DNA of 24,323 nucleotides from a virus: positions 1 to 24,323 of IMG/VR virus record IMGVR_UViG_3300042691_009321. The stretch is one strand, 5' to 3'. Of the stretch, positions 14,025 through 24,323 are shown piece by piece. The number at the start of each line of letters is the position of its first letter. Positions within the stretch are counted from its first letter, which is position 1. The position numbers were made by a program, and so were the translations under genes. The notes under the pieces are model-generated. The model was not told where the DNA came from, did no database searches, and saw only the letters and a program-made list of their open reading frames with translations.

Positions 14025-14043
14025 AAAAAAAGTGTCAGTAAAA

Positions 14044-15549
14044 ATGAAAAGAATATCTGAAGACCACAAAGAAATATCAAGTGGTAAAAAGAAAGATGAT
14101 GAAGGTTATATGGCAAGAAATGAACTTGATACTATTGAAAGACAAATCAAGAATTTAAGAAAAGTAATTAAAAGTAGTGATACCCAATTACCTGCATGGG
14201 TACAATCAAAAATTACTAAAGCAGCAGATTATATTGATACCGCAGCAGAATATCTTCAGAGTGATGAAGGTGTTGATGAGGGAGTTAGTTTTACTGTAGA
14301 TCCTAAAAAACTTAGGAAGGATGCAAGAGCAGCAAAAATAAGAAACCTTGCTCAAAAGGGTTCAACTGAAGGAGAAAGGCAAGCAGCAGAAAGAAAAACA
14401 TCAGGTCCAAAATTATTTGGAGAAAATATTTCTTTAGTAGAAAAAATTCTTGGCGAAGAGAAATGTGGTGAAGGAATGTATTGGTGCAATACTGATAAGG
14501 TATGTAAACCACTTCCTTCTGGATTTGATGTTCCAGGTCAAAGTAAAAAACCAACCGAAGTTGGTATAGGTAAAAAAGTTGCCTCAGAGGGTAAAACTTG
14601 CAATCATACTAAAAAAGGTTCTTCATGCCCAGTTCATGGTATGAACGATTGTTCCATGAAGGAAGAAAGAGATCCTAAAGGTCCAACACAACCATACAAG
14701 TCACCCAAAGAAATTGCTAAAAAACATGGAGTTTCTCTTGAAGCAATAAACAAACAACTTGAAATGGGTATTAAAGTTGAAGGAGAACATACCTCAAATA
14801 AAACTGCAGCAAGAATTACTGCTCTCCAACATTTAGATGAAGTACCAGATTACTATTCAAAATTAAAAAAAGTAGAAAAAAAATCTACTAAAAATGAAAG
14901 TGTAACTGTTGAAGATATGTTTGGTAATACATTTGTTGAATTTATAGATTTAATTAAACCACAAGATGTTATTGATGAGAAAAAAATTCCAGTCACTCGT
15001 CAAGCAGGAGACTTTAGATATCCTGGAAAGACTGGTGAAGAAAAAGCAACCAACAAAGCAAAACGTTTAAGTCAATCACAAAACCCTGCTGATCGTAAAA
15101 GAGCAAATAAAATTAATAAAACTATAAAAACAGTTGCTGACCGTGATACTGCACAAGCAAGTTCTGATGCAAGGCAAAAACTTTATAGAGGACAGCAGAG
15201 AAGAGCGAATGATCTTGCAAATCAGTTAATCAAACAAAAAAATAAGGTAGATGAAGCAGTAAGATTACCATCACAAAATGGTCAATTGATGGCAATTTTG
15301 TTTACTTGGAGAGGAAAATCATATTCATTGAAAATGTTCTTCCCTCAAGTAAAAATGCCTTCCAGAAAAGAAGTTGAGTTTGAACTACAAAAACTATACC
15401 CTGGAGCAAAAGTATTACAATCAAATATAACAGATTTAAGACAAGATGGAGCGCCTATTTTACAGGTTCAGAATTCAAAGTCAAAAAACTATCTATTAAA
15501 TAACGGAAATATTGGAGAAGAGGTTGAAATATCAGAGGGAAAAAAGTAA
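14044..15549 (+). CDS. Modular 501-residue phage protein: EGYM domain, Cys/His cluster, DUF5661-like domain, C-terminal YPGA domain
   Basis: The frame is open from a GTG at 14032 (505 residues). I prefer the ATG at 14044 because the late promoter start falls at about 14030. Residue numbers here use the GTG. In order: an EGYMARNELDTIE segment with QLPAWVQSKITKAADYI (25-76), a module recurrent in large phage structural proteins. A cysteine-rich part with CGEGMYWC (145-152), C158, then C190-x-H and C199-x2-H, possibly metal-binding. A DUF5661-like part (about 225-280) with KKHGVSLEAINKQLEMGIK, EHT and HLDEVPDYY. A basic, Gln/Arg-rich helical stretch (320-405). A C-terminal domain (418-466) with WRGKSYSL, PSRKE and LQKLYPGA. 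The last is shared with the protein at 23050-23370. It lies where T4-like genomes often have gp16, but nothing resembles gp16. I infer a virion or head-internal protein. The specific role is unknown. Confidence 0.85.
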   Translation: MKRISEDHKEISSGKKKDDEGYMARNELDTIERQIKNLRKVIKSSDTQLPAWVQSKITKAADYIDTAAEYLQSDEGVDEGVSFTVDPKKLRKDARAAKIRNLAQKGSTEGERQAAERKTSGPKLFGENISLVEKILGEEKCGEGMYWCNTDKVCKPLPSGFDVPGQSKKPTEVGIGKKVASEGKTCNHTKKGSSCPVHGMNDCSMKEERDPKGPTQPYKSPKEIAKKHGVSLEAINKQLEMGIKVEGEHTSNKTAARITALQHLDEVPDYYSKLKKVEKKSTKNESVTVEDMFGNTFVEFIDLIKPQDVIDEKKIPVTRQAGDFRYPGKTGEEKATNKAKRLSQSQNPADRKRANKINKTIKTVADRDTAQASSDARQKLYRGQQRRANDLANQLIKQKNKVDEAVRLPSQNGQLMAILFTWRGKSYSLKMFFPQVKMPSRKEVEFELQKLYPGAKVLQSNITDLRQDGAPILQVQNSKSKNYLLNNGNIGEEVEISEGKK

Positions 15550-21194: not shown

Positions 21195-22859
21195 ATGGCA
21201 AAATTATTTGGATTCTCTATTGACGATAAGCAAAAAACAACACCAACTACAGTTTCCCCCGTTCCTCAAAATAATGAGGACGGGGTTGACCACTATTTAA
21301 CTAGTGGATTTTTTGGGTCTTACGTAGATATTGAAGGTGTATATAGAACAGAATATGATTTAATTAAAAGATATCGTGAAATGGCACTTCATCCAGAATG
21401 TGATAGTGCCATTGAAGATATTGTAAACGAAGCAATTGTAAGTGATACAAACGATAGTCCTGTACAAATTGAACTATCAAATTTAAACGCTAGCGACGGA
21501 ATTAAGAAAAAAATAAGAGAAGAATTCAAACATATTTTAGAATTATTAGATTTTGATAAAAAATGCCATGAAATTTACAGAAACTGGTATGTTGATGGTA
21601 GATTATATTATCATAAAGTTATAGATTTAAAAAAACCACAAGAAGGAATTCAAGAATTAAGATATATTGACGCATTAAAAATGCGTTATGTTAGGCAATC
21701 AGTTAATAAAAGTGGAAAATCACTACGCGAAAGAAATCTAAATGCGTCAAGTGAAAATCCAATGGATTATGAATTTCCAGAAATAGAAGAATATTTCATT
21801 TATAATCCATCATCACAATCAACAGGAGTTACTAATAGATCATCATCACAATCTAATGGTGGTGTTAAAATTGCTAAAGATGCAGTAACATACTGTACTT
21901 CAGGTTTAGTAGATAGGAATAAAGGAACTACATTATCATACTTACATAAAGCAATCAAGTCTCTCAATCAACTTCGCATGATTGAGGATAGTCTTGTCAT
22001 TTATAGACTATCACGCGCACCAGAACGTAGAATTTTTTACATTGACGTTGGTAATCTACCAAAAATCAAAGCAGAGCAATATCTCCGCGATGTTATGATG
22101 CGTTATCGTAACAAATTAGTTTATGATGCAGGAACAGGCGAAATTCGTGATGACAAAAAATTCATGAGTATGCTTGAAGATTTCTGGTTACCACGTAGAG
22201 AAGGTGGTAGAGGAACAGAAATCACTACCCTTCCTGGTGGACAAAATTTAGGTGAAATTACTGATATTAAATATTTCCAAAGTAAACTTTATAGATCATT
22301 AAATGTTCCCCCATCAAGAATGGAGGGTGAAGGTGGATTTAATCTTGGTCGTTCGTCAGAAATTCTTAGAGATGAACTTAAATTTACCAAATTTGTCGGA
22401 AGATTGAGAAAAAGATTCTCTAATCTTTTCAATGATATGCTTAAGACACAATTAATTCTTAAGAATATCATTACCCCAGAAGATTGGGACATTATGAGAG
22501 AACATATTCAATATGATTTCTTATATGACAATCACTTCTCCGAATTAAAAGAAGCAGAATTGATGACCGAAAGACTTAATATGGCAGCAACTGCAGAACC
22601 ATATATTGGCAAATATTATTCTCAAGATTATGTCCGTCGCAAAATTCTTCGTCAAACAGATGAAGAAATTATAGAACAGGATCAATTAATTAAAAAAGAA
22701 ATTAAAAATGGAATTATTCCTGATCCAAATGCACCTATTGATCCTACAACTGGTATGCCAATGACAGGAGATCAATCTGCAACTGGAGATAATATAAATG
22801 GTGCATCAGGAAAAGTTCCAATTGAACCATCTGCAGATGGATCTTCCACTGAAGTTTGA
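21195..22859 (+). CDS. gp20: Portal vertex protein
   Basis: 554 residues, near T4 gp20 (524). Diagnostic stretches: FGSYVDIEG followed by RTEYDLIKRYREMALHPECD. IEDIVNEAIV. YRLSRAPERRIFYIDVGNLP followed by KAEQYLRDVMMRYRNKLVYD. The FWLPRREGGRGTEI-TLPGGQNLGEI segment. The NVPPSRM-GEGGFNLGRSSEI-RDE segment. Twelve copies form the ring at one capsid vertex. It nucleates prohead assembly, docks the terminase encoded upstream, and later joins the neck. The last ~50 residues are a Pro/Gly/Asp/Ser-rich, probably disordered tail. The stop (22857-22859) overlaps the next late promoter. Confidence 0.98.
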   Translation: MAKLFGFSIDDKQKTTPTTVSPVPQNNEDGVDHYLTSGFFGSYVDIEGVYRTEYDLIKRYREMALHPECDSAIEDIVNEAIVSDTNDSPVQIELSNLNASDGIKKKIREEFKHILELLDFDKKCHEIYRNWYVDGRLYYHKVIDLKKPQEGIQELRYIDALKMRYVRQSVNKSGKSLRERNLNASSENPMDYEFPEIEEYFIYNPSSQSTGVTNRSSSQSNGGVKIAKDAVTYCTSGLVDRNKGTTLSYLHKAIKSLNQLRMIEDSLVIYRLSRAPERRIFYIDVGNLPKIKAEQYLRDVMMRYRNKLVYDAGTGEIRDDKKFMSMLEDFWLPRREGGRGTEITTLPGGQNLGEITDIKYFQSKLYRSLNVPPSRMEGEGGFNLGRSSEILRDELKFTKFVGRLRKRFSNLFNDMLKTQLILKNIITPEDWDIMREHIQYDFLYDNHFSELKEAELMTERLNMAATAEPYIGKYYSQDYVRRKILRQTDEEIIEQDQLIKKEIKNGIIPDPNAPIDPTTGMPMTGDQSATGDNINGASGKVPIEPSADGSSTEV

Positions 22860-22890: not shown

Positions 22891-23049
22891 ATGGATGACC
22901 TCTTAGATATGATTATCACTGATGAATCGCCATCACAAATTAGTGATAAGATTAAAGATATTCTTTTTACAAAGTCTGCTGAAAAAATTGAAGCACTAAG
23001 ACCTAGTGTTGGATCTTCGTTATTTGGGGATCAATCCGAGGAAGAATAA
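22891..23049 (+). CDS. Very small prohead core protein, gp67-like
   Basis: 52 residues: MDDLLDMIITDESPSQ, a helical amphipathic middle (SDKIKDILFTKSAEKIEAL), then SSLFGDQSEEE with an acidic end. In T4 the gene after portal is 67, an 80-residue internal scaffold protein that is helical with an acidic tail. The position and the pattern of a helix with AEKI, a hydrophobic SLF, then Asp/Glu all match. Family membership is inferred from synteny and this pattern, not from clear identity. In T4 such core proteins fill the prohead and are cut by the gp21 protease. It directly abuts the next ATG. Its Glu-rich codons form the downstream gene's ribosome site. Confidence 0.8.
   Translation: MDDLLDMIITDESPSQISDKIKDILFTKSAEKIEALRPSVGSSLFGDQSEEE
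23038..23044 (+). promoter_or_regulatory. Ribosome binding site within the end of the gp67-like gene
   Basis: GAGGAAG is formed by the terminal Glu codons. GAGG ends eight bases before the ATG at 23050. With stop and start adjacent (TAAATG), the two genes are probably translationally coupled. Confidence 0.55.
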
Positions 23050-23370
23050 ATGAAATCATTCAGACAATTTATATCTGAATCAGTAAACATCTCAGGAGAT
23101 TTTAACGGAAATCTCTATATCAATTCTCAACCAGAAGAACCTCAACAGGTTGGGGAAAGTTATGTTGCAGATGTTATGTGGCAGGGAAATCTGTATAGAC
23201 TAGAATTAGTTACTAAATCAGGTTTACCCTCTAAACAAGAACTTGGCGAACAACTTCAGAGACAATACCCTGGTGCAATTGTTCACCAAATTTATCCTGC
23301 AGAGGAAAAGAATTTCAACATTAAAAATACAAAAAGATATCACCCTTCAAAATTAGAATGGATTGATTAA
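23050..23370 (+). CDS. 106-residue putative internal head protein with capsid-targeting-like N-terminus
   Basis: The N-terminus MKSFRQFISES closely resembles the capsid-targeting peptide of T4 internal proteins, which I recall as MKTYQEFIAEA. It carries an I-S-E site matching the gp21 protease rule ([LI]-x-E, cut after E, here E10). Residues 11-36 are polar (SGDFNGNLYINSQ, PEEPQQ). Residues 37-84 form a compact alpha/beta-looking domain (VADVMWQGNLYRLEL, LPSKQEL, LQRQYPGAIV). It is shared with residues 418-466 of the modular protein at 14044-15549. It sits in the prohead core cluster right after the gp67-like gene. I infer that it is packaged in the head and matured by the prohead protease. 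It could instead be a core protein in the gp68 position. No enzymatic motif is visible. Confidence 0.85.
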   Translation: MKSFRQFISESVNISGDFNGNLYINSQPEEPQQVGESYVADVMWQGNLYRLELVTKSGLPSKQELGEQLQRQYPGAIVHQIYPAEEKNFNIKNTKRYHPSKLEWID

Positions 23371-23372
23371 TA

Positions 23373-24323
23373 ATGGCTCAGTGGAATAAGACTACACAAG
23401 ACTTCTTAAATCAAGAAAGAAGTCTCTTTGAAACTTTTAACATCGCAGATCACTGGGGTAACCAAACAGATTGGAGACCTCAGTTTTCTAATAACAATAG
23501 ACTAAAGACTTCTCCTTTCCAAACAGTTTTCTTCAATACCTTTCAATATGGTAAAGAGACTGATGTTTGGGATGAGAGAATAGTTGGAGTTGGAACTGCA
23601 AACTGGAACCAGTATGCTAGTAATGTAGTTATGCAGGTGGGTTCTACTGCTGGTAGTAAAGTCATTAGACAAACCAGAAGTGTAATGAGATATATTCCTG
23701 GAAGACCTGCAACACTTGCGTTTGCAATTCGTTTAGAAGCACCTCAGGTAGGTATTCGCAGAAGATTTGGGTTGTTTGATGATAGTAATGGTACTTACTT
23801 TGAGGATGATGGAGGAACATATTCTTATGTAATTCGCACCACTACGTCTGGGATTACCACAGAAAGAAGAGTAACCAGAGAAGAATGGAATGGGGAAAAG
23901 TTTGATGGTAACGGTTGGACTGGTGTAACTGCAGATCCAACAAAACAGCAAATGGTTTCTATTACTTATGAATGGTATGGTGCGGGAACAGTAGATTTTA
24001 ATTGGTTGATGGAAGGCGAAACAATTAGAAGTCATAGATTTGATAATTCAAATACCCTTGATAAAGTTTGGTGTTCTACACCATTCCTTCCTATTCGCCT
24101 AGAACTTGAGAATGTAACTGGTGTTGCAGGAACTCATTATCTTTATCAGGGATCTAATTCTCTTATTCAAGATGGTAATGCGGATAAACTTGGAACTCTT
24201 TTAAGTCAGTCTAATCCCATTACTGGAACCACAATGGCGTTAGCAAATACATATTATCCAATTGTAAGTTTACGTCTCAAATCAACTGCACTTCAAGCAG
24301 TAATGCTTTTAAGGTCCCTACAA
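23373..24323 (+). CDS. Virion structural-type protein, truncated by right window edge
   Basis: The ATG at 23373 lies two bases after the preceding TAA. The frame stays open for 317 codons to the end of the window, so the 3' end is missing. It begins MAQWNKTTQDFLNQERSLFE and continues with beta-rich sequence: an arginine-bearing stretch QTRSVMRYIPGRPATLAFAI, GIRRRFGLFDDSNGTYFE, REEWNGEKFDGNG, and ITYEWYGAGTVDFNWLMEGE then HRFDNSN. This layout suggests jelly-roll or lectin-like beta-sandwich folds like those of virion decoration or fibre proteins, and similar proteins occur in cyanophages as unnamed structural proteins. Its place between the core genes and the expected gp21/22/23 is not the T4 arrangement. 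Function beyond structural is not assignable. Confidence 0.88.
   Translation, partial: MAQWNKTTQDFLNQERSLFETFNIADHWGNQTDWRPQFSNNNRLKTSPFQTVFFNTFQYGKETDVWDERIVGVGTANWNQYASNVVMQVGSTAGSKVIRQTRSVMRYIPGRPATLAFAIRLEAPQVGIRRRFGLFDDSNGTYFEDDGGTYSYVIRTTTSGITTERRVTREEWNGEKFDGNGWTGVTADPTKQQMVSITYEWYGAGTVDFNWLMEGETIRSHRFDNSNTLDKVWCSTPFLPIRLELENVTGVAGTHYLYQGSNSLIQDGNADKLGTLLSQSNPITGTTMALANTYYPIVSLRLKSTALQAVMLLRSLQ

Follow-up and report, generated by a model that had tools for sequence, protein, structure and literature searches.

A T4-type capsid-targeting sequence on a small portal-cluster protein appears to mark virion cargo across the Kyanoviridae

Do the first ten residues of a small protein encoded near a phage portal gene carry it into the head, as those of the T4 internal proteins do? 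The question is raised by an ORF at 23050-23370 (+) of the window, by which we mean the whole 24,323-base stretch analysed here, an IMG/VR virus record. It encodes 106 aa and starts MKSFRQFISES. The earlier note had read it this way, and a ribosome-binding site and tight gene spacing confirm the reading (Table 1): the ATG comes immediately after the stop of a 52-aa ORF, and 2 nt lie between its own stop and the next gene. The protein belongs to PHROG 1742, whose label in the database is unknown function. This family is carried by 138 phage records, every one of them titled Synechococcus, Cyanophage or Prochlorococcus phage. We argue that it is probably a small T4-like cyanophage protein with a working T4-type capsid-targeting sequence (CTS), loaded into the prohead and cleaved after E10.

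Table 1. The 106-aa ORF, its parts and its neighbours, by position in the window
Feature	Positions	Strand	Basis
Paralogous domain within 505-aa ORF 14032-15549	15265..15420	+	BLASTP 35% identity, E 2e-6; tblastn in window
Portal protein gp20, upstream	21195..22859	+	Portal_T4, PF07230, E 4e-197
52-aa ORF at T4 gene 67 position	22891..23049	+	phrog_14164, phrog_2088; weak profile chain to gp67
GAGGAAG ribosome-binding site	23038..23044	+	Sequence read directly
106-aa ORF, candidate CTS-tagged prohead protein	23050..23370	+	phrog_1742, E 2.2e-45 (full-length member)
Putative capsid-targeting sequence MKSFRQFISE	23050..23079	+	F4, F7 targeting; I8, E10 processing (T4 IPIII rules, PMC9026906)
Predicted prohead-protease cut E10/S11	23077..23082	+	Expected from [LI]-x-E specificity
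Flexible segment, residues 11-35 (SVNISGDFNGNLYINS...)	23080..23154	+	AlphaFold2 pLDDT <50 for residues 1-33; sequence conserved in alignment
Folded beta-beta-alpha-beta domain, residues 36-106	23155..23367	+	AlphaFold2; profile match to 14032-15549 domain
PHROG 1645 head structural protein, runs past window end	23373..24323	+	phrog_1645, E 6.9e-134

According to the T4 review (PMC9026906), the first ten residues of IPIII are sufficient for packaging; within them, positions 4 and 7 are important for targeting and positions 8 and 10 for processing, and gp21 cleaves after [LI]-x-E. The earlier note had aligned the ORF with the T4 peptide MKTYQEFIAEA. This sequence is right: ipII and ipIII of T4 (NC_000866) both begin with this peptide, and ipI begins MKTFKEFTSTTTPVSTITEA (pattern MKTFKEF...ITEA). 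The protease site that it placed in the tag is there too, as I8 and E10. The same note staked its reading on conservation of the N-terminal 11 residues, and they are conserved in 111/111 distinct relatives. All of these PHROG 1742 members match MK.[FY]..F[ILM].E, and F4 or Y4, F7 and E10 occur in every one. Position 8 is I or L in 104 of the 111; the M8 found in the other 7 departs from the T4 protease rule, which has L/I there. These comparisons support residues 1-11 as a conserved T4-type CTS with an [LI]-x-E site.

The tag also seems to be modular, because it stays N-terminal in a relative (L233, from the contig of L159) in which a 36-residue insertion separates it from the conserved NISG segment. 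Its [IL]-x-E end fits the likely protease specificity, since cyanophage major capsid proteins bear the same type of site (FLAE/AP in S-SCSM1, LLTE/AP in S-CREM2 and ILTE/AA in S-SZBM1, with FLTE/A in T4). The prohead protease would presumably cleave after the [IL]-x-E of the tag. Tag-driven targeting of the PHROG 1742 protein to the prohead is likely.

Is the motif more than chance? Matches were sought with a strict DNA pattern that encodes M-K-x-[FY]-xx-F-[ILMF]-x-E, and the reversed pattern served as the control. The strict pattern gave 50 forward matches in 28 records (17, 29 and 4 in sets of 10, 15 and 3 whole records), where at least one is expected in each of the 15 IMG/VR records because these were picked for carrying PHROG 1742, and the reversed pattern gave 0. 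Of these matches 49/50 start ORFs of at least 54 codons and the remaining one is a 10-codon ORF. Within the window the strict motif begins one ORF only, that at 23050-23370, and there were zero strict-pattern matches in S-PM2 and in the non-T4 phage S-CBWM1. Shuffled S-SCSM1 and S-CREM2 gave 0 matches over 20 rounds against 4 observed. A relaxed motif occurs 5 times within those ORFs of these two phages that are 150 aa or longer (110,134 residues), and 4 of the occurrences are at residue 2 (binomial p ~1.5e-10 for this bias).

It is worth considering where the tagged proteins are found. Mass spectrometry has given virion proteomes for S-SCSM1 (PMC9602691) and S-CREM2 (PMC10665884). The relaxed motif starts only seven of their ORFs of at least 45 codons, and 6/7 are MS-detected virion proteins, against 97/501 genes overall (Fisher p 2.7e-4, which is post hoc because the motif was fixed after the virion N-termini were seen). 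S-SZBM1 was left out of this test since it was scanned with the strict pattern only. If the strict form is used with GTG starts allowed, 4/5 are virion proteins in the same two phages (p 0.006). The tagged virion proteins are NMNAT in S-SCSM1 and, in S-CREM2, SAM hydrolase, an APH-like kinase, cytidylyltransferase and the two unknowns gp13 and gp136. The seventh ORF is SSCSM1_30, the orthologue of the 106-aa protein. No known tail protein is among the seven.

The cytidylyltransferase/NMNAT family (T4-GC190, PHROG 395) has the tag at its N-terminus in 80/80 IMG/VR loci, and no similarity to PHROG 1742 was found besides the tag. It was detected in the virions of S-SCSM1 (PMC9602691) and S-CREM2 (PMC10665884), in those of S-SZBM1 (PMC9146016), where the tag is one residue shorter (MRFRQFIIEA), and in those of S-SM1 (PMC3037559), where the N-terminus is MKKFSAFLNEA. 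In the Cas9-like virion protein of S-CREM2 the core of the motif lies at about residue 18. Further tagged ORFs from relatives match internal head/virion protein PHROGs 2667, 8111, 8765 and 7857 at their N-termini.

The presence of NMNAT, SAM hydrolase and kinases in cyanophage virions has so far been unexplained, and co-purification had remained possible. A shared ten-residue tag is a simple reason for these enzymes to be there. Across the Kyanoviridae, a T4-type CTS seems to be a mark of virion cargo. One can go further and propose that it is a general cargo-loading code there, taking varied proteins into the head to be delivered when the phage infects; we think this a serious proposal that falls a little short of probable. 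The cargo would be NMNAT/cytidylyltransferase, SAM hydrolase, the APH-like kinase, probably the Cas9-like nuclease (with its internal copy), possibly an ADP-ribosyltransferase, and PHROG 1742. With the tag, packaged and possibly injected proteins of an abundant aquatic virus group can be predicted from their sequences, and PHROG 1742 is narrowed to prohead cargo or core. A literature search on capsid targeting and cyanophages returned the T4 review only; subscription papers and preprints were outside its scope, so it does not establish priority.

Some further sequences carry the tag or something like it. A 154-aa ORF in one relative (L242:1501-1962, +) starts MKTFQEFIAEAK, close to the T4 tag, and continues after the tag with HGTS...YGPGVYTS, which resembles ADP-ribosyltransferase. 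It matches the internal virion protein of the T7-like cyanophages P60 and S-CBP42 (E 2e-3 and 3e-2), and Pfam and PDB sequence searches with it gave no match. From these residues it is possibly an ADP-ribosyltransferase. T4 Alt is an injected ADP-ribosyltransferase that is processed at both ends. By analogy, a C-terminal form of the signal is possible in two virion proteins with tag-like C-termini, S-CREM2 gp12 (OR473000 7704-10313; PKTFRDFLN) and SSCSM1_93 (MK867354 91626-91835; KRTFKEFLEYIE). Cyanomyoviruses are said to be without alt (PMC2984593). Two cytidylyltransferase genes (L231:943-1530, -, and L245:1501, +) have apparently lost the catalytic domain and kept the tag and the C-terminal part. 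More tagged ORFs in relatives are L219:1501-1953 (151 aa), L224:1501-2082 (194 aa), L239:1120-1530 (137 aa) and L240:1354-1530 (59 aa). In T4, gene 61.1 (NC_000866 18966-19130, -) encodes 54 aa and starts with the CTS-like MKTFKEFIKED; its product is not named among the T4 internal proteins in the passages of the review considered here (PMC9026906).

The PHROG 1742 gene is part of the portal cluster in most IMG/VR relatives. A gene at the gp67 position adjoins it upstream in the window and in 103/159 relatives' rows, and the PHROG 1645 gene, whose homologue S-SZBM1_190 was found in virions, is directly downstream in 123/159. In S-SCSM1, Syn33, S-SRM01 and S-SZBM1 the PHROG 1742 gene is instead beside the terminase genes, with no gp67-position gene adjacent. 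The earlier note described the gene as lying beside portal and a gp67-like gene. The portal stands, while "gp67-like" has to be taken as position plus a weak profile chain, in which T4 gp67 and S-SZBM1_179 (a small portal-adjacent gene) both match phrog_683. The 52-aa ORF has no BLAST match to T4 gp67, and on these grounds direct homology between the two was dropped. Published work holds that cyanophages lack gp67 and gp68 (PMC2984593).

What would the tag deliver? The predicted mature form has a pI of 5.3 (5.1 and 4.5 in relatives), against 9.0-9.7 for the T4 internal proteins. AlphaFold2 gives a modest model (mean pLDDT 66, pTM 0.44) with pLDDT <50 for residues 1-33, a short helix at 4-9 and a domain with pLDDT ~68-86 by block from residue 41. 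The domain at 36-106 has a homologue in the C-terminal region of the 505-aa ORF at 14032-15549 (profile probability 96%, E 5.4e-9). An S-SCSM1 relative of the 505-aa protein, S-SCSM1_29, is a reported virion protein and also surfaced in the viral fold search. The 505-aa ORF also carries DUF5661. When the mature part was compared with known internal proteins, PHROG and Pfam scans gave phrog_1742 and chance matches only. A Pfam search with the 42-member PHROG 1742 family likewise gave chance matches only, and the family profile found no match among PDB sequences.

The earlier note had called the protein a candidate packaged internal protein, one that might be injected and act in host takeover or anti-defence. 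The tag and the prohead targeting are well supported. The acidic mature form and the absence of two orthologues from reported virion proteomes count against a T4-like internal protein, and for retention in the mature head, injection, and a takeover or anti-defence role the protein is at most a candidate. The note's alternative, a plain scaffold or core component, may yet be right. SSCSM1_30 is absent from the reported virion proteins of S-SCSM1, with just two detectable tryptic peptides predicted. SSZBM1_191 is absent from those of S-SZBM1, with six predicted, in proteome data that are shallow. At the T4-like copy number (~360) a PHROG 1742 protein should have been detected in virions.

The sequences themselves show the tag, and that it is conserved, used in modular fashion on unrelated proteins and linked with virion proteins; they also show a conserved form of the protease site in cyanophage capsid proteins. 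We infer scaffold binding, the actual cut and what becomes of the mature domain as follows. As a short helix, residues 1-10 would attach to the prohead core (scaffold) and bring the protein into the head as it assembles. A gp21-type prohead protease would then cleave after E10. This would leave inside the head a 96-residue product, made of the flexible segment and a 70-residue beta-beta-alpha-beta domain. We give roughly even odds to retention in the head at low copy, with ejection along with the DNA, and to loss as the head matures.

One can imagine a scenario where the tag brings in a transient prohead core or assembly factor; once cleaved, this would be degraded or would leave the head, and would never be injected. 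We consider this rather unlikely. The cleaved product of T4 gp68 does leave or is degraded in head maturation, and in most relatives the PHROG 1742 gene lies between the gp67-position gene and structural genes, which is the place of T4 gene 68. The orthologues are unreported in two virion proteomes (S-SCSM1 and S-SZBM1), as is the gp67-position protein SSCSM1_37, and a second L-x-E at residues 65-67 is kept in relatives. However, this second site is inside a predicted helix and may be structural in role, the N-terminus of T4 gp68 is without a CTS, and the gene is beside terminase in the four phages named above. It is improbable that the protein works in assembly as the partner of its PHROG 1645 neighbour, a head protein, and that the tag only places both in the head. 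The two genes are together in both settings, in the 123 rows and in Syn33, S-SRM01 and S-SZBM1, but in S-SCSM1 the next gene encodes another virion protein, and phage late-operon neighbours travel together without interacting.

Two other explanations can be treated more briefly. An injected host-takeover protein acting on the host RNA polymerase via a T7 Gp2-like fold is very improbable. T7 Gp2 is the best PDB fold match (4lk0_M; probability 0.87, TM 0.58 on target, E 0.34), and several "RNA polymerase inhibitor" models were matched in the viral fold library. However, hhalign against a 13-sequence Gp2 alignment gives a probability of 0.15%, not above shuffled columns, and the homologous domain of the 505-aa protein gives no Gp2 match. 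Gp2-like function was rejected since the weak fold match fails the profile comparison, the shuffles and the homologous-domain check. That the N-terminus is like the T4 peptide by chance is scarcely credible, even for a motif of merely ten residues: the control gives 0 against 50 matches, the placement is strictly N-terminal, two unrelated families conserve the motif, and the tag is associated with virion proteins.

The tagged prohead protein that we favour can be set against known systems. T4 IPII, IPIII and IPI are likewise small proteins of a T4-like phage with an N-terminal CTS that has aromatic residues in positions 4 and 7, followed by [LI]-x-E at 8-10. They are basic, whereas the mature form of the 106-aa protein is acidic and no homology was found in the mature part. 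Unlike them, PHROG 1742 has orthologues that went unreported in two virion proteomes, and its gene is beside portal or terminase. T4 gp68 has a similar portal-67-68 place to that of the gene in most relatives, but it is a 141-aa protein without a targeting peptide. The virion family of the 505-aa protein (S-SCSM1_29) has a homologous beta-beta-alpha-beta domain, but in a protein of ~500 aa without an N-terminal tag. The cytidylyltransferase/NMNAT family has the N-terminal decapeptide and the phages in common with PHROG 1742, and differs in being an enzyme of 280-440 aa that is found in four virion proteomes.
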